Of a stretch of 25,651 bases of DNA, positions 1 to 22,700 are shown piece after piece. How positions within the stretch are numbered: the stretch's first letter is position 1; each line of letters begins with the position of its first letter. Source of the stretch: a virus. The notes beneath the pieces were generated by a model. That model saw nothing but the letters and a program-made list of their open reading frames with translations. It ran no database searches and was not told the DNA's origin. The DNA is taken from the IMG/VR virus record IMGVR_UViG_3300044641_003378, positions 1-25,651 of that record; one strand, written 5' to 3'. Made by a program: the position numbers and the translations under genes.

Positions 1-301
1 AACCACTGGTTCCAGAAGAACCACTTGAACCATTAGTTCCTGAAGAACCGCTGGTTCCAGAAGATCCGCTGGTTCCAGAAGATCCACTTGAACCATTAGT
101 TCCTGAAGAACCACTGGTTCCAGAAGAACCACTTGAACCATTAGTTCCTGAAGAACCGCTGGTTCCAGAAGATCCGCTGGTTCCAGAAGATCCACTTGAA
201 CCATTAGTTCCTGAAGAACCACTGGTTCCAGAAGAACCACTTGAACCATTAGTTCCAGAAGTTCCATTTATTCCAGAAGATCCGCTAGTTCCAGCTACAC
301 C
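1..301 (-). repeat. Collagen-like Gly-X-Y coding repeat with 108-bp super-repeat
   Basis: This stretch encodes residues 889-988 of the fibre as Gly-X-Y triplets built from GSS, GTS, GTN and rare GVA/GIN. The basic unit is 9 nt per triplet. The string cattagttcc starts at 31, 94, 139, 202 and 247, giving alternating 63 and 45 nt spacings, that is a 108-nt higher-order unit (36 residues, 12 triplets). The units 31-138 and 139-246 are identical base for base, and bases 1-30 equal 109-138, so a third copy continues off the left edge. Positions 247-301 are a degenerate border. No proline occupies X or Y. A trimeric collagen-type triple helix is the likely structure. Confidence 0.93.
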
Positions 302-2965
302 TTCATTTCTAGCTATTATTATTCTGCTTGCTGGATAATTACTTTGCGCATTTATATTTTGTGAACTTGAATCGTTATGCCAAGCGTAAATTTCTACATA
401 ATCATTATTATTTAAAACTAAAACTGAAGAAAAATGAGTTACTGGATAATCATCGTTTGCAGGTATACTGCTATATGAATATCTTCCTTGAGAAGAAGAA
501 ACATTACCATTTTTTACTATAAATACAGATCTAGATGTGCCAGAAGTTCCACCACTTGCCCATCCTATATAGCCATCAACAGTGATAACAATTGTATCTC
601 CAGAAGTATTTGTAAATCTATCAGTTCCATTGAAAGTTAAACCAATCGATCCTTGAGTATTCGCGGTATCCGCTGTAGACCAAGTTACTTTTGTATTTGA
701 AGACGATGATATGCTTTGCGTCGAATTATTATAATATGCTAAAGTAGAAGAAATGACTGGATCGCCACTGGTTCCACTTGTTCCTGAAGTTCCATTTTGA
801 GGTTCAATAATAACACCACGGAATGTCAAAACATTTGCAGAAGTTGTTGTTAATGCAAAATAAACAGGTTTAGAAACTTCACCAAAATTACTTGGCTCCG
901 TTGTTGTTGCCGCACCCGCTGTAGTTGCTGACAAGAAATAAACCTGCCCCGGTGTTAAACCACTTAATCCTTCAATCAATCCATCATATACCAATTTAAA
1001 AGTATTTGAATCAACAATGGTTCTTACTACTCCTTGAACTTCAGCGTGTTCGGCACTATCAGCTTGCGCTTTATACCATGTAGTTCCATCGAATCTAACA
1101 ATATCACCCACAACGAATCCATGACTTGCTTGAGTAAATTCATCAATTAAAGCTGTTCCATTGCCAGTATCTATTTGTTTTTTAACAATATTATTCTCAA
1201 TTACTAACTTATATAAATTTTCAGAAGTTGTTGTTGTTGGAAGTTCTGTAAATACTAAATTATTTGAACCACTATAATATAATGTTCCTGTAGTTAAAGA
1301 GTCTACTCCATCAAATTTTGGTATATATCCAGTAACTCCAATTCCATCAAATACATATCGTCCACTTAATGGAGATAAATTGATTGTTTGATCTATATAT
1401 CCAGATCCTATAAACAAAACATCAGAAAATTCTGAAACGACTTCATTATCATTAATTGCTCTAACTTTTACAAAATAATTATTATCTTGTGTTACCGGAA
1501 ATATAAAACTTGGATCTAGCAAATTATGAACAAAATTTGCGTATCCAGTTATTCTTTTAGCTACACAAATACCAGTAACACCAGTTTCTAAAATATCAAC
1601 TCCAGAATTATTTATAGATATATTATTTATATATCTAGAATCAGAATATGTTCCTGTATATACACTTCCGCTATAATAACCACCTGAAGGTAAAAAACTA
1701 AATTGATTATTACCAGTAAAACCATAACTTAAAAATACCTCTTGGCTATTTGAATATCCTGAAGGCACTCTTATTTCTGTAATATAATTGATTCCCGAAG
1801 AATATTGATCGTATATTCCAGTAGGCAAAGAACCAAAATTATCTAAATAAATAGTATGATCAGACCATTGTATTCCAGAAGAAGAATAATTACTAAAAAC
1901 TGAGCCTGTAGAATTTACGCCAGTACCTGTTCCATTAAAAATAGAAATTATATTTTCAACAGATCTATTATTAACAAAGTAATCGTAATTTGTTTTATTT
2001 TTACCGCTTTCTTCTACTAACACATGAAAAGAACAATCTTGCGATTCTGTTACTTGATCCCATTTTACAAATGCATTTAAATTAAGATCTTTAGATCTAT
2101 CATTATAATTATAAAATAAATAACCAGTTATATTTTCAATCTTATCCGGCAAAGTTATTTGAGAATAAGAAGCTGGCTTGATTCCAGAAGAAACAAATTT
2201 TGATCCGCTTGTAAAATAATTATAAGGAATTAAATGAACATAGTATGGTAATCTTATTGTATTATCTAGATTAGAAGAAGAATTTATCTGATCTAAATCA
2301 GGTATAATAATTTGATCTATACTAGGAGCATTATACTGTTGTGTATATAAATAACTATCTTCATCAGGATTAAAATTTGTTCCTGTTGTTATGAATACAT
2401 CAACAGATTGTATAGCTCTTCTATCGGTATATCTTACATCCAATAAAGAATAATTATCTACCGAATAACCGCTTATACTTATAGATGGAACTCCAAAATT
2501 AATTAAAGCTAAACCAGTACTTGTTTTATTATTAAAATCTTTACTAACTATCTCTATATAAAACTGATTTAAATTGCTTATATTCTCTGAACCAGTATGA
2601 ATAAGAAAACTATTATATAAATCCTGAGTTGATACAGAATATCTAGTTTGTTTAAAACCATTCGAATCAGAATTTATTAAATTTTTGCCTGTATCATAAA
2701 AATTAACAATAAAGCCCGAAAAAACTGAATCATCTACAAAAGAAGTAATTATTTCTTTAGTTACAGGTCTTTCTACGGTCCATCTTAAATCTATTGTATT
2801 CTGAGCTATGAATCCACTAACAAAAGGCACTTCAGGATCATAACCAAAGTTACTAGCATTAAAATATGTATCCTTAGAAGAATACAAACTATTCAATGAT
2901 AAATCTATGCTTTTTATCGCAAAAGGATCATCATACGTTATGCTTTGACCAGATATAAATGCCAT
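1..2965 (-). CDS. Large tail fibre protein, C-terminus cut by left window edge
   Basis: An open frame runs without a stop from the ATG at 2965 to base 1 (988 codons visible), so the C-terminus lies outside the window. Residues about 20-560 look like a chain of beta-rich, fibronectin-III-like domains similar to those C-terminal to gpJ cores (for example LRLPYYVHLIPY-like text near residue 240). Residues about 590-715 match a module common in phage fibres: HGFVVGDIVRFDG, then KAQADSAEHAEVQGVV, then GLSGLTPGQVYFLS. A GTSGTSGTSG linker leads to a C1q/TNF-like jelly-roll (about 733-888), followed from residue 889 by uninterrupted Gly-X-Y triplets. The start is 8 nt after the stop of the J-like gene, with no Shine-Dalgarno. 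Role as a side or central fibre that binds the host surface is inferred from architecture and position. It may be a split-off continuation of the J-like protein. Confidence 0.85.
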   Translation of the reverse strand, partial: MAFISGQSITYDDPFAIKSIDLSLNSLYSSKDTYFNASNFGYDPEVPFVSGFIAQNTIDLRWTVERPVTKEIITSFVDDSVFSGFIVNFYDTGKNLINSDSNGFKQTRYSVSTQDLYNSFLIHTGSENISNLNQFYIEIVSKDFNNKTSTGLALINFGVPSISISGYSVDNYSLLDVRYTDRRAIQSVDVFITTGTNFNPDEDSYLYTQQYNAPSIDQIIIPDLDQINSSSNLDNTIRLPYYVHLIPYNYFTSGSKFVSSGIKPASYSQITLPDKIENITGYLFYNYNDRSKDLNLNAFVKWDQVTESQDCSFHVLVEESGKNKTNYDYFVNNRSVENIISIFNGTGTGVNSTGSVFSNYSSSGIQWSDHTIYLDNFGSLPTGIYDQYSSGINYITEIRVPSGYSNSQEVFLSYGFTGNNQFSFLPSGGYYSGSVYTGTYSDSRYINNISINNSGVDILETGVTGICVAKRITGYANFVHNLLDPSFIFPVTQDNNYFVKVRAINDNEVVSEFSDVLFIGSGYIDQTINLSPLSGRYVFDGIGVTGYIPKFDGVDSLTTGTLYYSGSNNLVFTELPTTTTSENLYKLVIENNIVKKQIDTGNGTALIDEFTQASHGFVVGDIVRFDGTTWYKAQADSAEHAEVQGVVRTIVDSNTFKLVYDGLIEGLSGLTPGQVYFLSATTAGAATTTEPSNFGEVSKPVYFALTTTSANVLTFRGVIIEPQNGTSGTSGTSGDPVISSTLAYYNNSTQSISSSSNTKVTWSTADTANTQGSIGLTFNGTDRFTNTSGDTIVITVDGYIGWASGGTSGTSRSVFIVKNGNVSSSQGRYSYSSIPANDDYPVTHFSSVLVLNNNDYVEIYAWHNDSSSQNINAQSNYPASRIIIARNEGVAGTSGSSGINGTSGTNGSSGSSGTSGSSGTNGSSGSSGTSGSSGTSGSSGTNGSSGSSGTSGSSGTNGSSGSSGTSGSSGTSGSSGTNGSSGSSGTSG
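302..769 (-). other. C1q/TNF-like jelly-roll domain within the fibre gene
   Basis: Residues about 733-888 of the fibre read as a compact beta-rich domain. It starts after GTSGTSGTSG with a segment containing TQSISSSSNTKVTW, then QGSIGLTFNGTDRFTN, TIVITVDGYIGWAS, SRSVFIVKNG and ends near NDYVEIYAWHN and RIIIARNEG. The order of strands and the 'DYVEIYAW' signature resemble C1q/TNF-like trimeric jelly-rolls found in phage and bacterial fibres. It lies between a short GTS linker and the long collagen-like tail, which supports trimerisation. The assignment is from pattern memory, not from a profile search. Confidence 0.55.
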
Positions 2966-2973
2966 ATTTTATA

Positions 2974-5900
2974 TTACACATTAATTAATTTCATATTCGA
3001 GTCAAAAGCATATATATCTAAATCAAAAGAAGGAGCCGTTTGCGAAGCTAGATTTTCTCTTTTCTCTCCTAAAAATACCATTATTTTAGCGGCTTCATTT
3101 TTATTGATTTTAAACTTTAGTATTTTACCATCTTTTATTATTGTGCAATATAAGCCATAAACATAAGGATTAAGAGTTAAATAAGAAAAATAAGTTATAA
3201 AATCTATTTCTACTGCTTCATACTTTTTTTGGCTAAAATCTGAAGTAAAAATTTCATTTTCAATATAAAAACTATAATCAAAATCTGTTGAAATCGCTTC
3301 AGCATAAGATAGATTTCTTAAAACAATATTATTATTAGCTGAAATCAAAGAATCAGAAAGCGCCGATTTTATATAATCATCCGTAGTAAAAACAATTTGT
3401 TTTTTAACGTTTTGATTTTTTTCTACATATTTATCTTCATCAACGTAATCAAACTTTTCATTACTATATCTCATCGCTGTAATATTATATTCATTAGCTG
3501 ATGATTCATTAATTGTTATTATTCTATACAAATCCTCCGACTCTAAAGAGTCGTCAAAATAAATAGAAAAATTAGCATCTGCTCTCAAATTAGAAAATTT
3601 ACCATAATCTATATCTGGATAAGTTGTAAAAATCAAACTATTTACTTCAGCATACGGTGTATTACAAGCTATAACACCATACAAAGGATTCCCAACAGAA
3701 CGAGAAACTTCTCTTAAATTTACATCATTTAAAAAGTAAATAATCTTTGTTCCATCAAAAACTATTTTCAAAACTGATTTTTCATCTATTGTTTTATTAA
3801 AATTAAAAGGGCTGGCGGTAGTATAAGTGCCTTTTTCAATTGCATATAATCCTCCGCCTGAAATATAAAAAGCAAAATCAATATCAGTTTGATCAATTGT
3901 TATATTATTAACCGAACTCAATCCACAAGCCAAATATGTAGATGGATATGTAACCTTATAAGACAATTGGCAATTATTAACAAAACTCTGCTTTGTGTAT
4001 CCTTTTCTAGTCCAACCTGCTAACCCATCATTGTCAGCACGAACAACAGACCCATCTTCTGAGGATAAAATTTTTGCAACCGAATTCCAAGAAACAAACG
4101 ATTTAGAAAAAATCTGCAATCTTAAATTTGCATTATCAACTTTAAAAATACTCAGTGTAGTTTCTAAAGGCTCGTCATCTACAATAGAAAATATTTTTAT
4201 TTTTTTACCCAAAACTGTTGGATCAACCTCACGATCAATATAAATATAATTGTTTTCAAAATCTAAACTTACTATTCGACCAAAAGCTAATTTACTAAAT
4301 TTAAGATCATCAGCCACTCTAACTATATCTCCAATTTTTATATTTGTAGCTTCAATACCCGTGGTAAAAGAAACTGTTTGTGATTCTAATTTACTTGTGG
4401 CTAAAAACCATTTTCCAATTCTTTCTGCTTGATATCTAGAAGTTATGCCAAAACCTAAAATTTCTTTTTCTATTAAACCGTATTTTTTTATAAGAGAACT
4501 GTCTTCGACATTAACAATTTTATCCTTGAAATTATCAGTCTTATCTAAATAAGACACTTTCGCAACAGAAAAAGATGTTTCTAAATTAGCGGATGTATAA
4601 TTAAAATTTCCATCTTTAACATTTGAATTTGTAAATAAATAAACAATAGGTTTTTTTACATCTGTGGTTAAATTTAAAAGACCATTTCTAAAATAAAAAA
4701 CGCCTCTAAAAATAGAAGCTAAATCAGAAAGAATCTTTAAACCTTCTACATTTTCATTTATATATATATTGGCTGAAAATCTAGGTTCTAAGAAATCGTA
4801 ATAACCCTGTTGACTAGCAACACACTTTCCTGATTTTATTTTTAAACTTGAATCAAAAATTTTAGATTTAGTAAATTTCTGCGCTATAGCTGTATTAGAA
4901 GAATTATATTCACTAGTAACGGATGAATTAATATAATTTAAAGCATAAAATTTTGCTTTTTCTTCTGTATTTAAAAGAGCAGGATTTCCGCTTATATACA
5001 ATTGCAGATTTTTATAAAATTCTCCAGAACTATCTGATTCTATAAATCTTCGCATTCCAAAATCATTACATAATTTTAACGTAGCGGTAGTGCCATCAAG
5101 AGTTGCAGACAATATTATTTTTTTAAAATTAATGGTTATACTTTCTTTTGATTCATTTTTTATATCATATAAAAATAAAATACCATTTTCAGGATACGCA
5201 TCCCTTAATTCATTAACTGATTTAAACCATTCAAATGTAATAGTATTATATTTTTTTTCATCTATCTTTAGATTATTATCGTAAGTAAAATCATTAGCAC
5301 TATATTTTGTTGCTGCATTTGTTATTACCAACTCATCACAAAACTTAGATATTTTTAACATCTCCCATTTATTCAAATCATTTTCTGTCATATAAGTTTT
5401 AGCAAGTCCATATCTACTATTCAAACATAAATCATAAAATATCCAAGCTGGATTATCGGTCCATTTTAAAGTTTTACTAAAATTACCATTCCAATCACCG
5501 ATATACTCACGAATATCAGAATCATAATTTTCAGGAACTTTGATTTTTAATAATTTACAATCAAAACTTCTTACTGGAACACTAGAAAAATGTTTAGAGC
5601 TTATTTTATTTTCGCATATTGCTGAATACGGATAAGAAAATCTATATCCAACTCTTTCAACTACAGAATCAACATAAAATTCTTTTGCAAAATTATTAGT
5701 TTTTTCATCTGAAGCTGATAATCTTTTTTCTACACTATAAACGTTAATTATATATTCTGGATTATTTGATTTTAGATCAATTTTTTTTCCAAATTGAATT
5801 TCTATAGGAATCAAAGCTGGACTTCCTTTGACCACGAAATAACCTTGAAAGAAATAATAAACTCTAGATCTAATAGACAAATCAGTTACACAAACTACAA

Positions 5901-6741
5901 ATCTTAAATGATTGCTATATGTGCTTCCTTCTCCACCAATATAAAAACAATTATCGACTTTTATATTTACTGTCGCATTAGTAACATATTTATTTTTGAC
6001 GTAATGTGAAAAATTTCTTGATATATTTCTTGCATTTATTAATTTTTGTTGCAAAGCGTTGGATGGTGAATCTGTAAATAAAGCTTCATCAAATTGATAA
6101 AGCTTAAATTCAGTAATACCAGGATCTGTATCTAGATCATAAACTCTAGAACCATAACTATAAACTGCACTTGGCGTACTATTTAAATTATCTACTTCCT
6201 GACCGTAAGAAATTAAAAAATTAGCAGCCGAAAAATTTAAAAAATTAGTTTTTTTATCTCTGATTGGAGTATCGTTATAATACATTCCATAAGCCAATGA
6301 AGAACTAGAATCAGGAATATTTGAACTTAACGATAAATAATTTAACGTCGATCCATCTGGATCAACCAATCCTTCGATTGGCCCTTCACATAATAAATCT
6401 GAACTAATATACAAACTTTCACCATCTAAAGTTTTATTTCTTGCGCTATCTGATGGACTTCCAGCCAAACTAATCGGACCATATAAATTTTCATTCAAAT
6501 AGATTTTTACATTATTAAATTGTTGATTTGTGCTTGAATTTATTTGGCTTGCGCTAATCTGACCAGCATTTAAATTTAAATTTCCGTTTGGTGCAACTGT
6601 ACTAGTAACAGATGTTCCATTTGTGGTAATAGTAAAAGAGCCATTGCTATTTTTTTCTATACTATAATTTATTAAGCCCTGACCTTCTTCAGTCGAAGGA
6701 GCGTCCGCTAAACTATTAATATTATCTCTATAACTAGGCAT
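2974..6741 (-). CDS. Tail tip attachment / central fibre protein (lambda gpJ-like)
   Basis: The 1255-residue product carries the hallmarks of the gpJ family, the tip protein that contacts the receptor and around which the tail assembles. Visible marks are SSDLLCEGPIEGLVDPDG near residue 115; the block DNPAWIFYDLCLNSRYGLA near residue 426 followed by KWEMLKISKFCDELV; and a long segment at about 650-830 (EPRFSANIYINE, LASIFRGVFYF, FNYTSANLETSFSVAKVSYLD, GIEATNIKIGDIVRVADD) typical of the phage tail tip J domain. Residues about 900-1050 form a lectin-like insert (GWTRKGYTKQSF, DFAFYISGGGLYAIE, IYFLNDVNLREV) resembling SPRY/concanavalin-type folds. It lies 4 nt after the I-like gene, as in lambda (I then J). 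The start has an A/T-rich leader and no Shine-Dalgarno. Length is close to lambda J. Confidence 0.9.
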   Translation of the reverse strand: MPSYRDNINSLADAPSTEEGQGLINYSIEKNSNGSFTITTNGTSVTSTVAPNGNLNLNAGQISASQINSSTNQQFNNVKIYLNENLYGPISLAGSPSDSARNKTLDGESLYISSDLLCEGPIEGLVDPDGSTLNYLSLSSNIPDSSSSLAYGMYYNDTPIRDKKTNFLNFSAANFLISYGQEVDNLNSTPSAVYSYGSRVYDLDTDPGITEFKLYQFDEALFTDSPSNALQQKLINARNISRNFSHYVKNKYVTNATVNIKVDNCFYIGGEGSTYSNHLRFVVCVTDLSIRSRVYYFFQGYFVVKGSPALIPIEIQFGKKIDLKSNNPEYIINVYSVEKRLSASDEKTNNFAKEFYVDSVVERVGYRFSYPYSAICENKISSKHFSSVPVRSFDCKLLKIKVPENYDSDIREYIGDWNGNFSKTLKWTDNPAWIFYDLCLNSRYGLAKTYMTENDLNKWEMLKISKFCDELVITNAATKYSANDFTYDNNLKIDEKKYNTITFEWFKSVNELRDAYPENGILFLYDIKNESKESITINFKKIILSATLDGTTATLKLCNDFGMRRFIESDSSGEFYKNLQLYISGNPALLNTEEKAKFYALNYINSSVTSEYNSSNTAIAQKFTKSKIFDSSLKIKSGKCVASQQGYYDFLEPRFSANIYINENVEGLKILSDLASIFRGVFYFRNGLLNLTTDVKKPIVYLFTNSNVKDGNFNYTSANLETSFSVAKVSYLDKTDNFKDKIVNVEDSSLIKKYGLIEKEILGFGITSRYQAERIGKWFLATSKLESQTVSFTTGIEATNIKIGDIVRVADDLKFSKLAFGRIVSLDFENNYIYIDREVDPTVLGKKIKIFSIVDDEPLETTLSIFKVDNANLRLQIFSKSFVSWNSVAKILSSEDGSVVRADNDGLAGWTRKGYTKQSFVNNCQLSYKVTYPSTYLACGLSSVNNITIDQTDIDFAFYISGGGLYAIEKGTYTTASPFNFNKTIDEKSVLKIVFDGTKIIYFLNDVNLREVSRSVGNPLYGVIACNTPYAEVNSLIFTTYPDIDYGKFSNLRADANFSIYFDDSLESEDLYRIITINESSANEYNITAMRYSNEKFDYVDEDKYVEKNQNVKKQIVFTTDDYIKSALSDSLISANNNIVLRNLSYAEAISTDFDYSFYIENEIFTSDFSQKKYEAVEIDFITYFSYLTLNPYVYGLYCTIIKDGKILKFKINKNEAAKIMVFLGEKRENLASQTAPSFDLDIYAFDSNMKLINV

Positions 6742-6745
6742 GTTA

Positions 6746-7321
6746 TTATTTTATTTTATTATTATTTATAGCTCCTCCACCAATGAAAGTATTACCTGAA
6801 CCAATTGCATTTGCTGGATTATCGATTACCGCTTTTATTTGTAAATCATTAGACACAACAACGCTTCCAATCTTCAATCTTCCATATCCAATAGGAATAG
6901 CCACATTGCGTTTTGTAACATTTTCATATCCAGAAAACATTCTAGAATTATTTTTTATATCTTTTGGAGCTTTTGGAGACATCAAACGAGTTATCAACAT
7001 TTGAATACCCATAGCAATTAATAATATAACAAGATAAATAAGAAGATCTAGGCCAGGAATTGCACCCATTAATACAGGAACCACTTCAATTTTTGAATTT
7101 TTCTTTAAAATAGGAGAGTTTAAATATTCTGGAGGCATAATTTTATCATCAACATATATGATAAAATGTGTTAAATATTCTTGCATACTACCTAAAGCTG
7201 TTAACATTTTATTAGTATTAGCCTCTATAGCTTCAAAAGCCTCTCCAACAGTTTTGACGTTTAAAAGCCAATCTGTTTTAACGAATTCTTCAAAAACACC
7301 ATGAAGTTTGACGTTTACCAT
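6746..7321 (-). CDS. Tail assembly protein I (lambda gpI-like)
   Basis: The 191-residue protein matches the layout of lambda tail assembly protein I: an N-terminal ubiquitin-like half (MVNVKLHGVFEEF to KIEVVPVLMG, residues 1-86), a strongly hydrophobic helix at about 88-110 (LDLLIYLVILLIAMG), and a C-terminal 'RNVAIPIGYGRLKIGSVVVS' block at 138-157, which resembles the conserved 'P.GYGR..VGS.V.S' signature of the family. It ends in a Gly/Asn-rich tail. In lambda, gpI is needed for tip assembly but is not retained in the virion; the same role is inferred here. It sits 1 nt after the JAMM gene and 4 nt before the J-like gene, the exact lambda K-I-J order. A GTGTAAATA element lies 9 nt before the ATG. 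Confidence 0.88.
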   Translation of the reverse strand: MVNVKLHGVFEEFVKTDWLLNVKTVGEAFEAIEANTNKMLTALGSMQEYLTHFIIYVDDKIMPPEYLNSPILKKNSKIEVVPVLMGAIPGLDLLIYLVILLIAMGIQMLITRLMSPKAPKDIKNNSRMFSGYENVTKRNVAIPIGYGRLKIGSVVVSNDLQIKAVIDNPANAIGSGNTFIGGGAINNNKIK

Positions 7322-7322
7322 A

Positions 7323-7661
7323 TTAATCTATATTTACACATTTTTCTTGAAACAAATCTGCGGCTACATTATATAATAACATATTTATATTATGATATTT
7401 TTGATATTTTAAATCGAAATTAGAAAACGGCGCGTCCAAAGGATGACTATGAAATAAAAACAAGATAACATATTGTTTTTTTATTTTCAAATAATCTTCT
7501 GGAGATATAAGAAAAAAATTCTCTTTATCTGGATGTTTATTATCAACTGGAATGAAAGAAATCAAATCATCTTTTTTTACAACAAAGCCGCAAACTTCTA
7601 CAGTTTTATTATTTAAACAATATCTTTTAATTTCTTCACATATTTGATTTGGTAGTTTCAT
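7323..7661 (-). CDS. JAMM/MPN metallopeptidase-like tail assembly protein (lambda gpK N-domain)
   Basis: Starting at the ATG at 7661 the product has 112 residues. It shows a JAB/MPN+ active-site set: Glu22 in TVEVCGFVV, then H71-S-H73-P, Ser80 and Asp83 in HSHPLDAPFSNFD. The His-to-Ser spacing is one residue shorter than the usual JAMM pattern. Lambda gpK has this domain followed by an NlpC/P60 cysteine peptidase; here only the JAMM half is present. Role in tip maturation is inferred from the family. An upstream in-frame ATG at 7694 would add 11 residues and lengthen the overlap with the L-like gene to 59 nt; the internal ATG (MKLPNQ) fits the domain start better, with 26 nt of overlap. The gene is translated in a different frame from its upstream neighbour. 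Confidence 0.85.
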   Translation of the reverse strand: MKLPNQICEEIKRYCLNNKTVEVCGFVVKKDDLISFIPVDNKHPDKENFFLISPEDYLKIKKQYVILFLFHSHPLDAPFSNFDLKYQKYHNINMLLYNVAADLFQEKCVNID

Positions 7662-8676
7662 TATTAAAAGGAAAGGTTGCTGGAAACGCACCAAACGGAA
7701 GATATGTTAAACCATCTGTAAAAGCTCTGGCTGTATTATTTCCAAATCTAAGATTGCACCCTTGTAAAGTTTTAGAGCATTTATCTTGTTTCCAAACATC
7801 AGTATTTTTTAAAGGATTTTTATTTACAACACCATCAGCAATACAAACAAAATAATTTTTATTTCGATTTAATGGAGCTAAAATAGCTTCTTCTGATTCT
7901 AAATTTGTGTCAAATAAAGCGTCCAAATAAACAAAGTCTCCTTTATTATATATAGTTGTTTCTAACCATTCCGCTTTATAAGTTAAAGAAGTTAAACCGT
8001 AATTTCCATTATTAGAGAATTGATTATATGTATTAACAAAAATTTTATCATTTTCATCGGCAACTGGCGCTCCTAAAACATTTTGAAATCCTCCACCAAT
8101 TGTAACACCTAAATTTGGACCATTATATGTTCTTGTGTTTCCATAATTACAACCATAACAACGATAGTTCCATGAGCATGTATCATTTGTTACTTTTCTT
8201 GCTGGAATAGTTAAAGTTTGAACGTCAACTTTAGTAACTAACTCTAATTCTATTTCATTTAAATTTTCACTTAATTTTGCATTAATAATTAATTTATCAA
8301 AAGAAATATAAGTATTGAAATTAGAAACACCAAATGGATTTTTACCATCTGTGAAATTAACTATATCCAAATCCTTAGCTAGTATCTTTTTTCTATTAAA
8401 ATTTTTTCCAATCAAATCGCCTCTGTCTTGAAGGACTCTCGAAAAATAATTATTTACATTTCCTATTTTTATTTTTGGCCTTCCTTGTCTGCCATCTGAC
8501 GTAGTTTCAAATTGAGAAAACTCGCAAGGAATAAAAATATACTCTTTATTTTGAAAAATCAAATTTTTATTAAAATTTTTAGATCCATGAAATCTTAGAT
8601 ATCCCTCATTAGATTCTAATTCTATTTCAAATAAATCTATTACAACATAATTATTAAGTTTAAATAAAGTATTCAT
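7636..8676 (-). CDS. Minor tail protein L (iron-sulfur tip protein, lambda gpL-like)
   Basis: The 346-residue product resembles the gpL family, tail-tip proteins that carry an iron-sulfur cluster. The N-terminal part has a beta domain with QGRPKIKIGNV and 'RGDLIGKNFNRKKIL'. The cysteine clusters are C167-x5-C173-x2-C176 (DTCSWNYRCYGCNYG) and C300-x6-C307 (DKCSKTLQGCNLRFG), followed by FGAFP near the C-terminus, all typical of the family. C167/C176 and C300/C307 give C-x8-C and C-x6-C pairs, consistent with four cluster ligands; C173 is extra. Between the pairs is an insert of about 120 residues, of which 232-295 (IYNKGDFVYL, YFVCIADG, NKNP, DVW) looks like a small carbohydrate-binding-type module. 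The stop of the 871-aa gene overlaps the start as TAATG. The order L-K-I-J is as in lambda. Confidence 0.87.
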   Translation of the reverse strand: MNTLFKLNNYVVIDLFEIELESNEGYLRFHGSKNFNKNLIFQNKEYIFIPCEFSQFETTSDGRQGRPKIKIGNVNNYFSRVLQDRGDLIGKNFNRKKILAKDLDIVNFTDGKNPFGVSNFNTYISFDKLIINAKLSENLNEIELELVTKVDVQTLTIPARKVTNDTCSWNYRCYGCNYGNTRTYNGPNLGVTIGGGFQNVLGAPVADENDKIFVNTYNQFSNNGNYGLTSLTYKAEWLETTIYNKGDFVYLDALFDTNLESEEAILAPLNRNKNYFVCIADGVVNKNPLKNTDVWKQDKCSKTLQGCNLRFGNNTARAFTDGLTYLPFGAFPATFPFNNETTKSNM

Positions 8677-11291
8677 TATGTCTGTGTATTTATTTTACCT
8701 GCTAAATTAAAAATATTAGGCAATTGAATTTGACTATCAACAAGCAGAGAAGAACCAGTTTCTCCAGCAAATAATTTTAAATACTGTTTGTTCAAAGAAT
8801 TATACATTTGAAGTCTTTCATTATTATACAAAGTTCTATTATAAAATATAATATCAAAAAAATAAGTATCTAAAGTTCCCCCATCGTTTTTTAGTTCTAA
8901 AGTAGTATTGTTCAAATCGTTTATATATTTTAATTTATCAGGAAGACCATAAATACAATATCTTTTTCCGTTTACAAAAATTGCATATATGTTATTAGAT
9001 CTTTGAATATTTAAAATAAAAGGATAATAATTACCAGAACCATTTAACTGTTTAGAGATTTGAGAGTATGAACTAATTAAAGCCGGATCATTTGTAGCTT
9101 GATAAAAAGTGTTTTTATCTTTATTTGATATTACTCCATCATACAATAATGAAAAAAAGAAACTAAAAACATTATTTTCTTTCGAAAAAGCTTTATAAGC
9201 TGTATTTAAAAAAGGCCTCAAAAGAACATTTTTATTACTAACCTTATCAGACGAACTATACCAGTTTAACATTTTAAAAATTTGTTCTGCATACGACGCT
9301 CCTTTAAAACAACCAACTATAAATAAATCAAAATCAACACAATTAACAGACGAAGAAAATGATCCTTGTAAATATTTTGTATTTGGTAAAGACATAGCCT
9401 TATAGCCTAATCCTTCAAAATCTGCAATATATGTTCCATCTCCAGTCAAGCTTACTATAGTTGTTGACTGAGAATTTTTACCTATCCATTTTGGGTTGGT
9501 ATTTGATAAATCTGAATTATTACATCTAAAAATATAATCACCAACAACGGCATCGTTATAAAAATTAACTTTCAAACTTGAGTTTAAATATTTATTCACT
9601 AAATAGCCGCAAGAACTTGCCGCATTATTATTTATTTTTATAAATTTAGTTTGTAAGTCGGGAATAGTAAATATATTTTCTTGTACAGGTAAACCTGAAT
9701 CATAAACTACAATATCAGAGTTTACTGTAAATGAATTAGTTTTTACTGTGTATTTTATAATATTATCAACAGCGTCTTCTCCATACTGCGGATTAGGGGA
9801 GTACAATTTAACAACATCTTCTAGCGTAGTTCTTTGTGCAGATCTAACTGAAAAAAATGTATTTTGATTATTATTTGAGCCTCGTATCGGATATACTATG
9901 TTTCTTTCGATACCATCAGAACCTACTCCTATATAAGCATTTCCACCACCCAACATTCCAACTCCAGCTTTATTTCCACCACCACCAGCAGTTATTTGCG
10001 AAGACTCTTGAATAAAAATATTATAATTTATGTCCGTTCTGACAACCGTTTCATTACGAATAGAAATTTTATTATTTAAATTTAAAGAATTTCCGCCTTT
10101 TTTACTATCAGACATTCCATTAGAATCGGAATAAACAGAAGCGTCAAAAATAGGTTTTAGATTAGCTCGTTTTTCAGTATTAATAATAATATTTGCCAAA
10201 TCTCCACCTTTACCATGATTTCCAATAATAGATACTCTTTCAGGAATATATATATTTATATTCGTACCATTTGATGGATCACCAGTAAAGTTTTGAAAAA
10301 TACCATTTTTAAAATCTAAAGCATAATTGTTTTCATCACTAGAAGAAAAAACACTTCCAGCAGATAAATAAATATTTATTCCTGAATAAAAACTTAAATC
10401 AGAAGAGCCAGCATTAGAATCTAATATTTTTTGATATAAATTGTAATTTACATAATTTCCTTGCGTTACAATTACATCTAACATTTTCTTATAAAACCTT
10501 AAGTTTGGACGAGTAGCGGCGGCTCCTGAAAAACCATTAACCACTTCATTTGATAATTGATCATTTAAAGTATCAATACCAGAAGCAAAAATATTTATAC
10601 CAGAATTACCAACGCTATATGTGTATAAACGAGCATAATAATCTTGGTCTAAATCAATAGATGTAAAATCTTTGCTTGATATATTTTTTATTATTTTTTC
10701 GTCGGCATTGTAACCATAATATTTACCAAATCTAGGATTCTTATCTGTGTTTTCTGCAATATTAAAGCCCGTACTAAAAACTATATTTGTAAAAATATTA
10801 TTTTTAGAAATATCTAATTGATAACCTGTAAAAAAATAATTTTTTAAATTTCCTGTTCCAGTTGGTGGAGACCAAATAAAGTCATAATTTATCCAATTTG
10901 TTATATCATAATTTTTTAATGCAACTAAATTTCTTACATGTCCACCAGTATTATTTATTATTCTTGATCCAGTTATTTCTACAGTAATAACGCCACTTGG
11001 ATCTGGAGTCCCATCTTCTACCGATTCGCTATAAATTAAAAAATCACAAGTATTATCTATTGCGGACGCTACCTCTTCTGGTTTATATAAAACATTTACA
11101 ACCGCACTATCGCCATTATTTATTATTAATGAAGTATCAGAAATAGAGAATAATTGATCTGCATCGTTTTCTATCTTAAATGAATAAGAAACATCTGAAT
11201 TACCACTATTTATTATACTTATAGGCCAATGAATGCCAAAACCAGTCAAGCATTCACCAATGAATTTACCTGTTAAATTTACATATGTCAT
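8676..11291 (-). CDS. Multi-domain tail-tip adhesin-like protein
   Basis: I do not recognise the 871-residue protein as a whole, but its parts can be read. Residues 1-105 resemble an ASPM/SPD-2/Hydin-type immunoglobulin-like domain (ISIINSGNSDVSYSFKI, VLYKPEE). About 115-240 look fibronectin-III-like. Residues about 360-475 contain Gly-rich stretches (IIGNHGKGGDLANI, ITAGGGGNKAG, GMLGGGNAYIG), similar to polyglycine-rich phage adhesin segments. Residues about 618-855 form a LamG/concanavalin-like lectin domain (FDLFIVGCFKG, YPFILNIQRSNNIYAIFVNGKRY, DIIFYNRTLYNNER). It starts by ATGA overlap with the stop of the gpM-like gene and ends in a TAATG overlap with the gpL-like gene, so translation is probably coupled. 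Position inside the tip cassette and lectin fold suggest host-surface binding; this is inference. Confidence 0.8.
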   Translation of the reverse strand: MTYVNLTGKFIGECLTGFGIHWPISIINSGNSDVSYSFKIENDADQLFSISDTSLIINNGDSAVVNVLYKPEEVASAIDNTCDFLIYSESVEDGTPDPSGVITVEITGSRIINNTGGHVRNLVALKNYDITNWINYDFIWSPPTGTGNLKNYFFTGYQLDISKNNIFTNIVFSTGFNIAENTDKNPRFGKYYGYNADEKIIKNISSKDFTSIDLDQDYYARLYTYSVGNSGINIFASGIDTLNDQLSNEVVNGFSGAAATRPNLRFYKKMLDVIVTQGNYVNYNLYQKILDSNAGSSDLSFYSGINIYLSAGSVFSSSDENNYALDFKNGIFQNFTGDPSNGTNINIYIPERVSIIGNHGKGGDLANIIINTEKRANLKPIFDASVYSDSNGMSDSKKGGNSLNLNNKISIRNETVVRTDINYNIFIQESSQITAGGGGNKAGVGMLGGGNAYIGVGSDGIERNIVYPIRGSNNNQNTFFSVRSAQRTTLEDVVKLYSPNPQYGEDAVDNIIKYTVKTNSFTVNSDIVVYDSGLPVQENIFTIPDLQTKFIKINNNAASSCGYLVNKYLNSSLKVNFYNDAVVGDYIFRCNNSDLSNTNPKWIGKNSQSTTIVSLTGDGTYIADFEGLGYKAMSLPNTKYLQGSFSSSVNCVDFDLFIVGCFKGASYAEQIFKMLNWYSSSDKVSNKNVLLRPFLNTAYKAFSKENNVFSFFFSLLYDGVISNKDKNTFYQATNDPALISSYSQISKQLNGSGNYYPFILNIQRSNNIYAIFVNGKRYCIYGLPDKLKYINDLNNTTLELKNDGGTLDTYFFDIIFYNRTLYNNERLQMYNSLNKQYLKLFAGETGSSLLVDSQIQLPNIFNLAGKINTQT

Positions 11292-15846: not shown

Positions 15847-16764
15847 TTAACTATTTAAATATCCTTTATAACTTAAATTTACACTTAAAACATCATCGGC
15901 TGACGAATTATAATTTTGAGACACTAATTTGACATTTGAAAATGTTTGTTTGAATAAAGAAATTCCATTAGAAGCTTCTAAAGCAAATAAGTCTAATTCA
16001 CCTAAAGTAAGATTTTTAAAAACTTTTCCACGAACTTCTATACTAAAACTATAATCAATATCATTATTCATCTGATCATATAATTTTTTGCTTTCATAAT
16101 CATCTACCTCCATTGTAAATAAAGCGTCTATTTCAATAGGTAATTCTAATAATATTTCATTAGGAATATATGCATAATTATCAGAAGGATAACTATATCC
16201 CGGCCCTGAAGCACTTACGCCTGATGGCTGCAATAAATAAATTGGCTTCTTTGGACAACTGATAGAATAATTAAATTGAGTTATTCTATTTGTAGAAGAA
16301 CCACTACAAGTTAAAATAATATCTTTAACTTGTGGAACGCTTATATATGGAGCGCCTAAATTACCAGAAGCAGAAGTACTCTTACCTATATCTCCAAATA
16401 CTTGTATATCTATTGACGTTTGTGGAATTTCTCCCACAGAACATTGCAAATTAAAATTATTAACGCATCCAGTCTTAAAACCAAATGATTTGCCAAAGTA
16501 ATTTATACTACCAGCAAAAATTCTAGCTTGTTTAGATATGCTTTCACCAGTATATTGTAAAAATGGTTCATTATATAATAAATATTTTTGAACATTAAAT
16601 GTGGCATTAGGCACATCAGCCATTATTTGTTTATTATATCCAACACCTATTGTATTAATTGGCCCATAATTTATAGAGTAATTTCCCTCTATAGATTGTA
16701 TACCAGAAATAGCATTACCATTGAGGTAAAAAATATTTTCGTAATTTAATGCGGCGTTTTTCAT
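15847..16764 (-). CDS. Tail protein, tube-like paralog A
   Basis: The 305-residue protein starts in a TAATG overlap with the tape measure stop. It has 'GIQSIEGNYSINYGPINTIGVGY', 'NATFNVQKYLLYNEPFLQYTGE', 'GFKTGCVNNFNLQCSVGEIPQTSIDIQVFGDIG' in its first half and 'VKDIILTCSG', 'NRITQFNYSISC', 'ELPIEIDALFTMEVDDYESKKLYD' and 'LSVNLSYKGYL' in its second (all read as parts of one beta-rich protein). The Ig/tube-like pattern of an N.nP strand followed by 'P.tsidi.v.G' recalls tail-tube and distal tail proteins, and the same order appears in the 268-aa product. Position right after the tape measure suits a tail completion or distal tail role. No enzyme motif is seen. Function is inferred. Confidence 0.7.
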   Translation of the reverse strand: MKNAALNYENIFYLNGNAISGIQSIEGNYSINYGPINTIGVGYNKQIMADVPNATFNVQKYLLYNEPFLQYTGESISKQARIFAGSINYFGKSFGFKTGCVNNFNLQCSVGEIPQTSIDIQVFGDIGKSTSASGNLGAPYISVPQVKDIILTCSGSSTNRITQFNYSISCPKKPIYLLQPSGVSASGPGYSYPSDNYAYIPNEILLELPIEIDALFTMEVDDYESKKLYDQMNNDIDYSFSIEVRGKVFKNLTLGELDLFALEASNGISLFKQTFSNVKLVSQNYNSSADDVLSVNLSYKGYLNS

Positions 16765-19700
16765 TATGTTGCTCTACGAGTTCCTGCTAAAGATCCGCCA
16801 AATCGTTGCTGATCTTTTATTACTCCTAACACTGCTCCATATATCTTATTATTTAAATTTTGTGATAATTCAACATCTTGCTGTTTATAACTTGTTGAGC
16901 TAGAGCCAACTTCAATAGTACCATCTCTATTTACATTAGTATTAAAGTTAAAAGAGTTGGTGGCATTACTGTTATTTACAACATTAGAGTTATTAACAGA
17001 TGAACCCATTCCTCCATTTTGTAAACCAACACCATATTTTTTAACTATTGGATTATTATATAATCCTCCTTCAGCATAAGCTGGAATTGTATCAGATAAA
17101 CGAGAACCAATTAAACCTCCTGATTGTTTGCGGCCAGGCATTTTTGGAGATCTTAAGAAAGATCTAATTCCAGAATAACTTTCCGCTCCTGTATATCCAC
17201 CAGTATATGGATTTATTAAATTCTTACCAGTATATGTGTTATATTTAGATACATCGCTAGGAGTAAGACCTGTTTCAGCATACATTTGAGGAGTATCTCC
17301 GTATGCTCTTAATCCTGCTCCAACCATTGTAGCTGTTCCAGACTCTGCAAAATCTTGCGCTCCAGCCGCCTCAGCATTAGATTTAAAATTAGACATGCCT
17401 TTAGTTAAACCAAAGCTAACTGCTGCCGCCGCTAAAGAACCTACAATACCAGCAATCATTTGTTTTCTTTGTCTATCTTTTTGACGTTTTTGTTCTTGTT
17501 TTTGTCTTTCTATATCTCTTAATTCGTTATATACTTGACTATTTTCAAGACCAGCAGTAGTCATACCCGCTTCCATAGATTGTAAATCAGTAAATTCTTT
17601 TGAAAAAGAACCTCCAGATGCAAATCTTGGAGCCATGCTAAAATTTAATTTATCAATTTCAGCAGGACCACCCATCGCCATTACTGCATTTCTATTTAAT
17701 ACATATTCACCATTCTCTAGCAATGCTGGATATTTATCTCCAGAACCAGTTCCAGAAATATACATACCAGATTGAGCGCGAATGTATCCTCCTTTTTGTT
17801 TCAAACCTCCAGCGGCTGCTGCATTACTTATTCCTGGGATATTCATGCCAAAACTTCCTAACAATCCATATATTGCACTTCTCATCATAATCGTACTCAT
17901 TTCATCAAGAAATTTTGAAGCTATCCCCATCAAAGCTTCTCCTAAATTATTTGATTCGCGAATTGCTGCTTTTATTCCGTCTACCAAACCATCACCAAAC
18001 ATTCTAGGCAGATCTCTTCCTAAAGTATTTATTAGCTCTTCACTTTGACCTCTTAAACTAGCCACACCAATTACAAAGTTGCCACCGAATGTAGATTGCA
18101 TTCTCTTGTATTCATCAGTATTTTTCTTAATTCGATCTCCAATATCTCTTTGTATAACCAAAATATCTTTTTCTTTTATTAATCTATTTTGTAAAGCTTT
18201 AGTGTCTTCAGCTATTTTATCTGATTCTTTAGTTTTAGATACTAAAGCTCTGTTTCTAATAGTTTCTAGTTGTTGATAAATGCTTAATGTTTGTTGATCT
18301 TGCATTAATTTGGCAGCTTCACTTTGCGAAACTCCAAGCTGTGCAGCTCTTGATTCAAAATTACTAGTTATATCTGAAATTTGTTGTTGAGTCAATTGAT
18401 TTTTAGCATCAACATTAAGCAAATCTTTTTTGTATTGAGAGAAATCATATCCTCCTAAAGAACTTGGTCTTTGCTGCTGTAATTGCTGATAAGCTTTGTA
18501 AGCAGAGATTTGTTCTGGAGTATATATTGCGTTTTTATCTTCTGGACTAATTGGAATAGCTGAATATGAATTTTGAAAACTCTTTATACTTTCATAATTT
18601 GATTGTCCTCCCATTTGTTGCATCAAAATATTATTAGTTAATTCAAAAACAGCATTTGTTAATCCCTCCAAAGCAGTTGTATTAGCTTCTCTTGTTGCAA
18701 TTTCTATTGCTGCTTGTTGTATTTGATCATTTAAAGTCGCGTCTTCGACTTTACGTCTTTCTTGTATCGCTTGATTTTCTAATCTGATTGTTTCTTCAGT
18801 GTTTGAGCGAACACCTTGACCCAAGATTCTAAAAGGATCTTGAACTCTGGCCTCAGTTAATTGAGCTTGAGCGCTTCCTCTTGCTGCGCTGATCGCTGAT
18901 CTAACTTGTAATTCATCGACCAACTCTCTCATTGCTCGTAAACGCAAAAGAATGCCTTTATCAACTTCTGCTCTTTTGACTGATAAATCTGTTTCTGCTT
19001 TTAATCTTGCCGCTTCGAATGAAGATCTAATACGATTTTCTTCTTCTAAGTATTTTTGATTAGCGTCAAAATTAATTTTTTCTTGTTTTGCTGTTTCTGT
19101 TGCATATTGAATAGATTTTTGAGCATTAGTATTTGTTAAGAATTCAGCACTCTTTGATAAAGCGTTTATAGCTCTTATAGCATCATTTAAATTTTTGAGA
19201 GAATCGGTATCTGTTTTATCTATAGCCTGTGCTTTTTCTGATAAAATCGCTCTTGCCTTATCCCTACCACTTTCGCTTAGTAAGTCAGCGGTATTTATTT
19301 TAGAACTCATTCCAGCGACTTTAACAGTTTTAAAAGCTTCTTCTAGATTTTGTTTATTTAGATTATTAAGTATTTGAGGCAAATTAAAATCATAATTTCC
19401 TTTTTGAATTTGTGGTAGCAAAGCGCTTTCAAAATATTGTGCATTTTGTTGCGATTGCAATATATTAGATTTAAAAATATCTGTTAACTTAGATGTATTT
19501 TTTTCTAAGAAATCGTTCTTTGCTTTTTCTTGATCTATTTGAAACTTATTATTGTTTAATTGTATTTTATTTATGCCTTCGGTATATTTTCTTGTCGCAA
19601 TTTGAGGTGCCATTTGTAATTTGCTAAATTCGTCCAATGTGTCAGACAAGAAAGAATCTAGAAAACTATTAAAACCAGTAGAAAATTCTAATATTGTATT

Positions 19701-22700
19701 TTGAATTCTATTTTCACCAGTTGTTGATATAAATCGTTTTTCAAGATCAAAATTTTGTTTTTGTAAATTATTAGCTATTCTTTCAAAAATTGCTGAATAA
19801 GATTCAGTAGCTATTTTATTAAAATTAGCAAATATTTTACTTGTGTCTTTTAATAATTCATTTTTCTCTAAACCTTTAATTAATTCATCGATTTGTTCAT
19901 CTGTCAAATCCACTATTTTTTTATTAGCCGCTAAAATATTTGCTTCAAAATTCTTATCAGTTTTTGCATTTATATTTCTTTTAGCCAAAAGCGGACCTAA
20001 AATGTCAGTAGTTACAGCAAAATCTCTAATTCTTTTTGATTCGACATTATCAGTTCCCATTTCACCCTGAAACATTAGATCTTCAAATTTTTTTGTTCCT
20101 TTTATATTTTGTAAGCCTTTAATAAAATTTTTTCTCTCCTCTTCATTTAAACTAATAGATAAATCTGAAATAGTTTGATTAACATCTCCGCTTTCAAATA
20201 GCCCTTTTTGAAAAGCTCGTTCAGCTGTTACTTTATTAGTATAATCTTGCAATTGTTTTGTCATAATACTAACATCACCACCAGCAGCTAAAAACATTTC
20301 CTGTAAATTAGTATCTTTAATTTGATTAAAGCCTAAAGCAAGATTTTTTGTTGCAGTTTCTATCTCTGTAGAAGAAGCTCCTTTTGAAATTAGATCAGTT
20401 AATTGTTTTTGACTTTCTATATATGAAGAAGCTGATTGAATATTTTGTTGATTTATTTGTGATTGCTTTTCATTTAAAGCTGTTAATTCTTCAACAGAAA
20501 GATTAGCAGCGTCTAAACTACTTTTTAGACCAATTAAAGCTCCTATTGTTCCACCTATTGCTGCGCCAACAGGACCAAAAGCAGCACCTATACCAGCACC
20601 AGTAGTAATAGCTGTTAATCCAGTGCTTAAACCAGATTGAGCTTGACGTTCACCAGTTGTCATATCTTCTCTTTTCTTATTTCCAAATACTGCTTGTTCG
20701 GCCAATCCAGCGATCATTGGACCAGCAATCGAAATAGCAGTACTCGCCGAAGCTAAACTCTTGGCAAATTTACTCTGTTGATTATTTATTTCTTTGGAAG
20801 CTTTATTCATTGCAGCATCAAGTTTTTGACCAGATACGCCTCCAGCAGTAAGGGCATTTTTTAATTTACCTAATTCGGTATCTATAAGTTTTGTTCTACC
20901 TCCAAACATGCTTTCAAATAATCCCATTTGCTCATCTGCATTTTGAATAGTATTTATTAAATTTTCTATTGCTTTTGCAATATCATCATCAGACATTGAT
21001 GCAGGAGCATTAGTTTGTGTATTTTTACCCTTTTTCCCACCTCTACCTTTTTTTCCAAAATTAGGCACAAATCCTCCACTCATTAAGCCAGCAGCTTTTT
21101 GCCCTCTCATTGAATCACTCAATGCATTACTTAAACCGCCATGATCAGCTATTGCGGAACTAAATGTTGGTTGACTGCTGTTTCTAATGTGTGGGAAAGG
21201 TTTTGTATCGAAGATAGCTTTATTGCCGCTCATGCTTTCTTCTAAGCCCATTACTGCTTGTTTATAAGCGAAATTAGGAATAAAACCTGACGCTGAATTC
21301 AAAATCATTTTCTTACTTGCAGCATTATATGTCCAACGCCCCATCTTATCGTACATGGCTTTATTATTTTTATAATCGCCATAGAAAATTCCTTGTTCTT
21401 TGTATTTTTTCAATTTCTCCATTTCGCCAAGATTTTGAAGATTAGAAACACCAGCCAAATCAGATCTTAAAGCTGCATAATTAACTGCTCCTACTCCTTC
21501 TGCTCTTTTACGATAATCAGATAATTTAACCTGAGTACCTATATAACTATTTTTAATTAACCAATCTTCATAAGATTTTCTTAACAAACCTGTTCTTGAT
21601 TTAATTTCTTTTTTGTCTACAAACTTACCAGATTCAGCGTAATTTTTAAGAAAATCCCAAGCAGATTTTGTTTCTGGATTACTAGACCAAAAAACACCTA
21701 AAACTTTAGAAAGTCTATCGTAATTAACTTTCTTCATTTTACCAGAAACTTTACCAGTATAAACAGCATCAGGATTTGGAACATATCTTGAATTTCCAAA
21801 GTTTTCACTCATTCCCCTTCCAAGTCCTAATGAAGTAGTTCTACCCGCGCTAGATAAATTTAAAGCTGCTGACTTAGCAGAACGTTGAGCAGCTTCATTA
21901 ACATCACCTACTAATCTGGGATTTACTGAAGAAGCGTCAGGTATAAATACATTATTTCCTAATATGGACATAACCATATTATTCCAAGCTTCTTCTAACA
22001 TATAACCATACAATCTCTCACCGGGTTTTCTGGCATTAGTGCCACTTAATCCAGTTCCTTCTTCGGGAAATATATCTCCAGGACCAGTTTTTGTTCTATA
22101 AAAATTAGCATTAACTTTTTTTCCATTAAAATTAGGAATAAAACCACTTGCAGCAGCCATTGCTAAAAACGCAGGATTTTTTACATAACTATTTAATAAA
22201 CTATTTGTTTCTGCGGACAATCCTTTTACAAGATCAGGGCTATTTTTGGTCATTTGAGAATAACTCGTACCAGCTAAAGGACCAAAAAGTTTTTTACCTA
22301 ATTCTGAAGGTATTTGATTTTCATGACCTACTTCATTAAAAGCAATAATTAATTCTTTTAATTTTGCGGCTGCTGCGGGATTAGATTTGGATAGTGTTTC
22401 GTATTTTCTTGTTAATTCGCCAGTAATACTTCCTGGTAAATTCTTTTTTGGATAGCCTTTATATTCTATGCCTATACCAAATTCTTTTAACCCAGCATCT
22501 AACGCCGCTTGTTTTTGATTTGTTCCTGGTTGTAATACATAGCCTCTTATCAAATCGTTTTTTACATTTGGTTGAGAAACTAATTGCATTGCTTTGAATG
22601 CAAAATCCTCATATAATGGAGCAAATATATTACTGTCTCCTCTCTCATCTGCTCCTTCAGCAGTGCTTTTGAAATTGATTTGTCTAAAAGTTTCTGTATC

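Follow-up and report, generated by a model that had tools for sequence, protein, structure and literature searches.

Very probably, the first 301 nucleotides of the window represent a tail fibre, likely trimeric, from a siphovirus-like phage, with a recent in-register duplication of a 108-bp unit in its Gly-X-Y stalk and with the record broken off by the assembler within that stalk. The window, that is, the whole stretch of DNA analyzed here, is the entire record IMGVR_UViG_3300044641_003378 (25,651 bp, classed as linear), and its position 1 is a contig end.

A perfect 108-bp repeat in the stalk of a tail fibre

The collagen-like fibre gene stands at the end of a lambda-like tail cluster that comprises genes for a tape-measure protein, tail proteins, Phage_tail_L, a JAB-domain protein, a tail assembly protein and a J-like protein (Table 1). 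The phage of the window is siphovirus-like, with tail genes of the lambda J/L/K type. The preliminary description had called the tract part of a collagen-like tail fibre, which agrees with the Pfam Collagen match (PF01391) on aa 889-944 (E 3.3e-13; 49.6 bits against a cut-off of 27.2) and with the PHROG tail-fibre matches. INPHARED, searched with the fibre minus its array, returned no match, so there is no isolate for comparison. The tape-measure protein (2826 aa, window 16764-25244, minus strand) has a recurring SGFIPNF-like motif at aa 626, 809, 1033, 1319 and 1390, with dissimilar inserts between the copies; by rule of thumb, a tape measure of this size suggests a tail of roughly 420 nm.

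Table 1 Features of the window (positions in the 25,651-nt record)
Feature	Positions	Strand	Basis or remark
Contig terminus	1..148	.	terminal stretch exactly repeated at 109-256
Third 108-bp unit, cut by contig end	1..40	-	1-40 = 109-148
108-bp unit 2, identical to unit 1	41..148	-	exact repeat comparison
108-bp unit 1 (45+63 blocks)	149..256	-	exact repeat comparison
Gly-X-Y (collagen-like) array	1..301	-	aa 889-988, 33 triplets, no proline; open at edge
C1q/TNF-like jelly-roll domain, predicted, aa 730-888	302..778	-	AlphaFold2 and Foldseek; directly before array
Short Gly-X-Y tract (GTSGTSGTSG), N-terminal to jelly-roll domain	765..797	-	translation
Distal exchange module, about aa 550-888	302..1318	-	up to 100% DNA identity to phages with dissimilar N-terminal half
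Tail-fibre gene	2..2965	-	ORF, 988 codons, 3' end missing (off record); PHROG tail-fibre matches
Central tail fibre J-like protein gene	2974..6741	-	phrog_31, 1e-98; directly upstream of tail-fibre gene

The last 100 residues present in the fibre are GSS, GTS and GTN triplets with few exceptions. At the DNA level, positions 1-148 and 109-256 of the window are identical over all 148 nt; starting at 256 and following the coding direction, blocks of 45, 63, 45 and 63 nt precede a cut 40 nt, which amounts to 2.37 units of 108 bp, and Tandem Repeats Finder gave a period of 108 with 2.7 copies over 1-294 (score 532). The exact repeat confirms the alternating 63- and 45-nt blocks noted earlier, with two identical 108-bp units and a third running off the edge; the period of the tract also stood, whereas its extent, previously given as 1-246, had to be moved 10 nt further to 256. 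Although two Gly, two Thr and four Ser codons occur in the array, no synonymous site differs between the two units. When codons were shuffled with the protein kept (500 trials), the longest exact repeat was 19 nt on average and 34 nt at most, and shuffling the order of the 9-mers gave a maximum of 48 nt. Against the codon-shuffle maximum of 34 nt, recent tandem duplication or homogenisation, as initially proposed, is the only reasonable reading of a 148-nt exact repeat. Two other long open frames cover the array in different reading frames (3-338 on the plus strand, and 1-267 on the minus strand in a second frame); both were rejected as genes, being by-products of a repeat period divisible by 3.

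We propose that the perfect units arose by recent in-register tandem duplication, through unequal recombination or slippage. As unit length is a multiple of 9 nt, adding or removing a unit would preserve both the reading frame and the Gly-X-Y register while altering the length of the stalk, and might hypothetically, as the preliminary description suggested, affect host reach. With the rise of 0.29 nm per residue adopted in PMC3368898, each 108-bp unit (36 residues) would add about 10 nm if the chain is a triple helix, and the longest array among the relatives (451 residues, in L018) would come to about 130 nm.

The record stops at an assembly break in the array

The window record ends at position 1 because a short-read assembler was unable to resolve the repeat. 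A sister contig from another sample (L002, IMGVR_UViG_3300042391_001567) is identical over all of its 8,972 nt to window positions 22-8993 and ends at window position 22, its terminal 127 nt recurring exactly one unit earlier. Since this contig carries the same sequence, the two-unit repeat is not the private error of one assembly.

Relatives were found by the fibre protein and by alignment of its N-terminal part (for the latter, the best 80 of 115 matches), and the 85 contigs examined consist of one MAG contig and 84 virus contigs, the sister contig L002 among them. None of these 85 contigs (best 80 of 115 matches included) runs to the end of the fibre gene, although their lengths go up to 53 kb, and 55 of the 85, with the same selection of matches, terminate inside a Gly-X-Y array. 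Among the matches listed, the terminal repeat is exactly 127 nt long in nine contigs (which include repeat samplings of one virus, but in separate assemblies), 99 nt in three and 55 nt in three. We take 55, 77, 99 and 127 nt to be k-mer sizes of common de Bruijn assemblers. A null in which the same contigs were cut at random positions of their arrays (5000 trials) predicted 0.12 contigs with a 127-nt terminal repeat (maximum 2) and, for any of the four lengths, a mean of 0.67 (maximum 6), against the 15 contigs observed. A natural genome end at the array was rejected, as one virus ends at different places across samples and the overlaps there are often of k-mer size. Where contigs break off at an earlier point of the fibre gene, they mostly stop in or near a distal module common to several phages, which may be another kind of graph fork. 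The concern raised at the outset, that assembly might have collapsed the array, was therefore well founded, in that the contig stops because of the repeat and relatives have k-mer-sized termini; the contig edge being an assembly break, 2.4 copies is a minimum.

Exact array patterns used to seek the far side of the break returned only the sister contig, and an exact-pattern search with the L005/L026 array had the same outcome. One scan of genome contigs yielded only one hit, a contig of a Bacteroidetes MAG with 38% identity, and this too stops in an array.

This systematic gap is the part of the result worth acting on, with 0 of the 85 contigs examined (best 80 of 115 matches included) traversing the fibre gene. 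Because contigs break in this gene, often with an assembler k-mer signature, the true array length and the distal tip of the fibre, probably its host-recognising part, are missing from these short-read data. Copy numbers read off such contigs are lower bounds, and long reads would make natural variation in fibre length directly measurable.

An exchanged distal module precedes the array

Compared with the window fibre, the relatives show about 41-91% identity in aa 1-550 and mostly 80-100% in aa 700-888; where the distal module is up to 100% identical between phages (the matching region in L005-L028), their N-terminal halves often reach only 46-75%. In several relatives the identity steps up sharply at about aa 550, a mosaic boundary, which indicates that the distal part of the fibre is exchanged between phages.

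Directly next to the array, where a trimerisation domain was looked for, aa 730-888 are predicted with moderate confidence to form a C1q/TNF-like jelly roll. The AlphaFold2 model has a mean pLDDT of 72 and a pTM of 0.73, the other four of the five models reaching pLDDT 48-56, and its Foldseek matches are the knob/petal domains of the phi812 central spike, EDA-A1 and C1QL3; by sequence, the same residues gave no match in Pfam and none of note in PDB.

For the fibre of the window itself, searches did not find the C-terminal side, and its plan can be approached through relatives. In L097, L105 and L110, single ORFs lead from the array on into beta-rich modules. Among the relatives, five contigs (37-39 kb) have an array at each end, both on the same strand, and the pieces that start in an array go on into modules resembling those of L097/L105/L110 or into long NTTG-type repeats. 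Peptidase_S74 is present in array-starting ORFs at the other contig end of L119 and L120, and also in L128/L129. A phrog_2 terminase search on the double-array contigs found none, so they are not proven to be whole genomes; a circularity check found no overlap between their two ends, and the array-starting C-side pieces could possibly belong to a second array gene. By analogy with these relatives, the missing part of the window fibre likely follows the plan of array, beta-rich modules and S74 chaperone. The fibre as a whole would thus present a predicted jelly roll, then the Gly-X-Y stalk, then further arrays and beta-rich modules and probably a C-terminal S74 domain. Both the C1q/TNF-like heads and the S74 chaperones belong to families that form trimers, and the collagen tracts of EHEC prophages form triple-helical trimers; for these reasons the most likely role of the array, by analogy, would be that of a trimeric stalk that sets how far the distal domains stand from the tail tip.

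Several other features of the relatives were recorded. Giant NTTGxNNxAxGxxAL-repeat ORFs of up to 2768 aa, still open, occur in L121/L128 (G001), L123/L129 (G003), L119 and L120, with a Peptidase_S74 end and at the contig end opposite the fibre gene. A methyltransferase and a kinase lie beside the array/S74 gene in L126 (623-4654) and L130 (2635-7346), where further ORFs resemble glycosyl- and sulfotransferases by eye. Between the two Gly-X-Y arrays of L041, a domain at about aa 1089-1195 looks cupredoxin-like by eye, and other relatives have other globular domains at this position.

Array length differs among relatives by whole triplets

The first array of the L041 group is bounded on both sides; six contigs have it at 1080 nt, L073 at 972 nt. 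L041 and L073 differ by one 108-nt gap with no mismatch in 1062 aligned nt, between flanks that are identical over 605 nt upstream and 537 nt downstream; the gap has only 7 nt of microhomology, and the difference is therefore not a k-mer collapse. The arrays of L080 and L026 show 0.7% mismatches and gaps of 117, 36, 72 and 243 nt, and those of L106 and L108 show gaps of 9, 9, 252, 18, 9 and 9 nt. All array gaps between relatives are multiples of 9 nt, which the 9-nt periodicity of the array itself favours in alignment. Comparison of copy number in related phages had been suggested as a check, and it revealed not one fixed number but differences between close relatives (1080 versus 972 nt; L080 versus L026), always in frame as anticipated. 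The frame-keeping of length change is firm, and the mechanism is inferred. The further suggestion that length varies between virions or within a population is unsupported: contigs of the same virus from different samples (window/L002, L009/L010, L007/L017, L005/L006/L026, L050/L089) have identical arrays wherever they overlap, a comparison of overlapping parts only, none of these contigs crossing the array.

The perfect copies could also be an assembly artefact, a graph loop walked twice with no tandem copies in the genome. Many related contigs do stop at precisely a k-mer already present one period before, so that the graphs do loop in these arrays, but a graph loop itself needs reads joining a unit end to a unit start, two records from different samples have the same 2.3 copies, and the bounded arrays of relatives (L041 and others) show the same kind of repeat finished on both sides; we hold such an artefact to be very improbable. 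A larger share of plausibility, although still the minor one, goes to the idea that gene conversion or recombination, still going on among co-circulating phages, maintains the identity of the units, in place of a recent duplication within the lineage. This would accommodate L018 and L026, which are 77% identical upstream and about 99% identical in their arrays with in-frame gaps, as well as the distal module at up to 100% identity against 46-75% in the N-terminal half. The window and L065/L090, however, fit a lineage-specific expansion: over the 300 nt that lead up to the array their identity is 97%, and their array units are unrelated from nt 5, so that arrays turn over faster than flanks. 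Recent in-register duplication is the reading we retain.

The pair L024 and L025, with an identical flank and arrays differing from nt 26, was not taken to prove that arrays are exchanged, since the path may be chimeric; L025 extends only 102 nt into the array and has 117 identical nt upstream in common with L005/L026. Early stops in L086, L096 and L106 were rejected as gene ends, as they reflect frameshifts upstream of or inside the array. In the fibre-gene array of L086 the reading frame switches once, by a stitching error or a real frameshift.

Composition of the array and the triple helix

Over 1859 triplets of the window and its relatives, about 80% are GSS or GTS, and charged residues make up about 1% of the X and Y positions. 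Proline occupies 0.2% of X and 0.9% of Y (about 0.5% of X/Y), so the frequent proline of a collagen triple helix was not found here, and the window array has none; bacterial collagens have 19% proline in X on average (PMC8968730). This composition, unlike that of characterised collagens, counts against a triple helix and is the weak point of our explanation. It would suit a flexible linker or a polyglycine-II-like bundle, in which length alters spacing and does not extend a rigid rod, and polyglycine-II domains occur in phage adhesins such as S16 gp38. We nevertheless consider this rather unlikely, as glycine at strictly every third residue over up to 451 residues (L018 array) would be superfluous in a plain linker, and both the predicted C1q/TNF-like neighbour and the S74 domain of relatives come from trimer-forming families. 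The fibre collagens of EHEC prophages, moreover, form triple helices (PMC3368898). A trimeric stalk thus remains our preferred reading of the array.

A broader proposition seems doubtful at present but would follow the same lines: that widespread aquatic phages carry nearly proline-free (GSS/GTS)n triple-helical stalks, registered by jelly-roll and S74 domains and adjustable in length, in which whole-triplet length evolution outpaces the flanks, and whose receptor-binding tip is systematically lost from short-read virus databases.

Comparison with known systems

The window fibre is of a known kind, the phage collagen-like fibres, but is nearly proline-free. EPclA and EPclB of EHEC are also phage tail fibres with Pfam Collagen stalks and whole-triplet length differences between members, and the EHEC prophage collagen tracts form trimers with triple helices and differ in length by multiples of three residues (PMC3368898). 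Their stalks are flanked by the trimerisation domains PfN, PCoil and PfC, in place of which the window has a predicted C1q/TNF-like domain, and the arrays of the window family differ from theirs in having almost no proline and can reach greater lengths (up to 451 aa, still open). Legionella Lcl has tandem Gly-X-Y repeats that are likewise polymorphic in number, and its copy number changes binding (PMC6460258); Lcl is, however, a bacterial surface adhesin and not a phage fibre. Pelagimyophages are similar in that the structural region of an aquatic phage combines collagen repeats with other receptor-binding domains, their structural genes having triple collagen repeats and YadA domains (PMC7029224), but they are T4-like myophages of SAR11 while the window is siphovirus-like. 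C1QL3 and EDA-A1 of the C1q/TNF superfamily share the combination of a collagen-like tract with a trimeric jelly-roll head; in the window the predicted jelly roll is N-terminal to a long array, and the likeness is one of fold only, without a PDB sequence match. Finally, the huge phage LR756501 (735 kb; L030, 13084-30301) carries arrays rich in GTS/GSS, 363-1131 aa long, in three adjacent ORFs, and it resembles the window in the array only.
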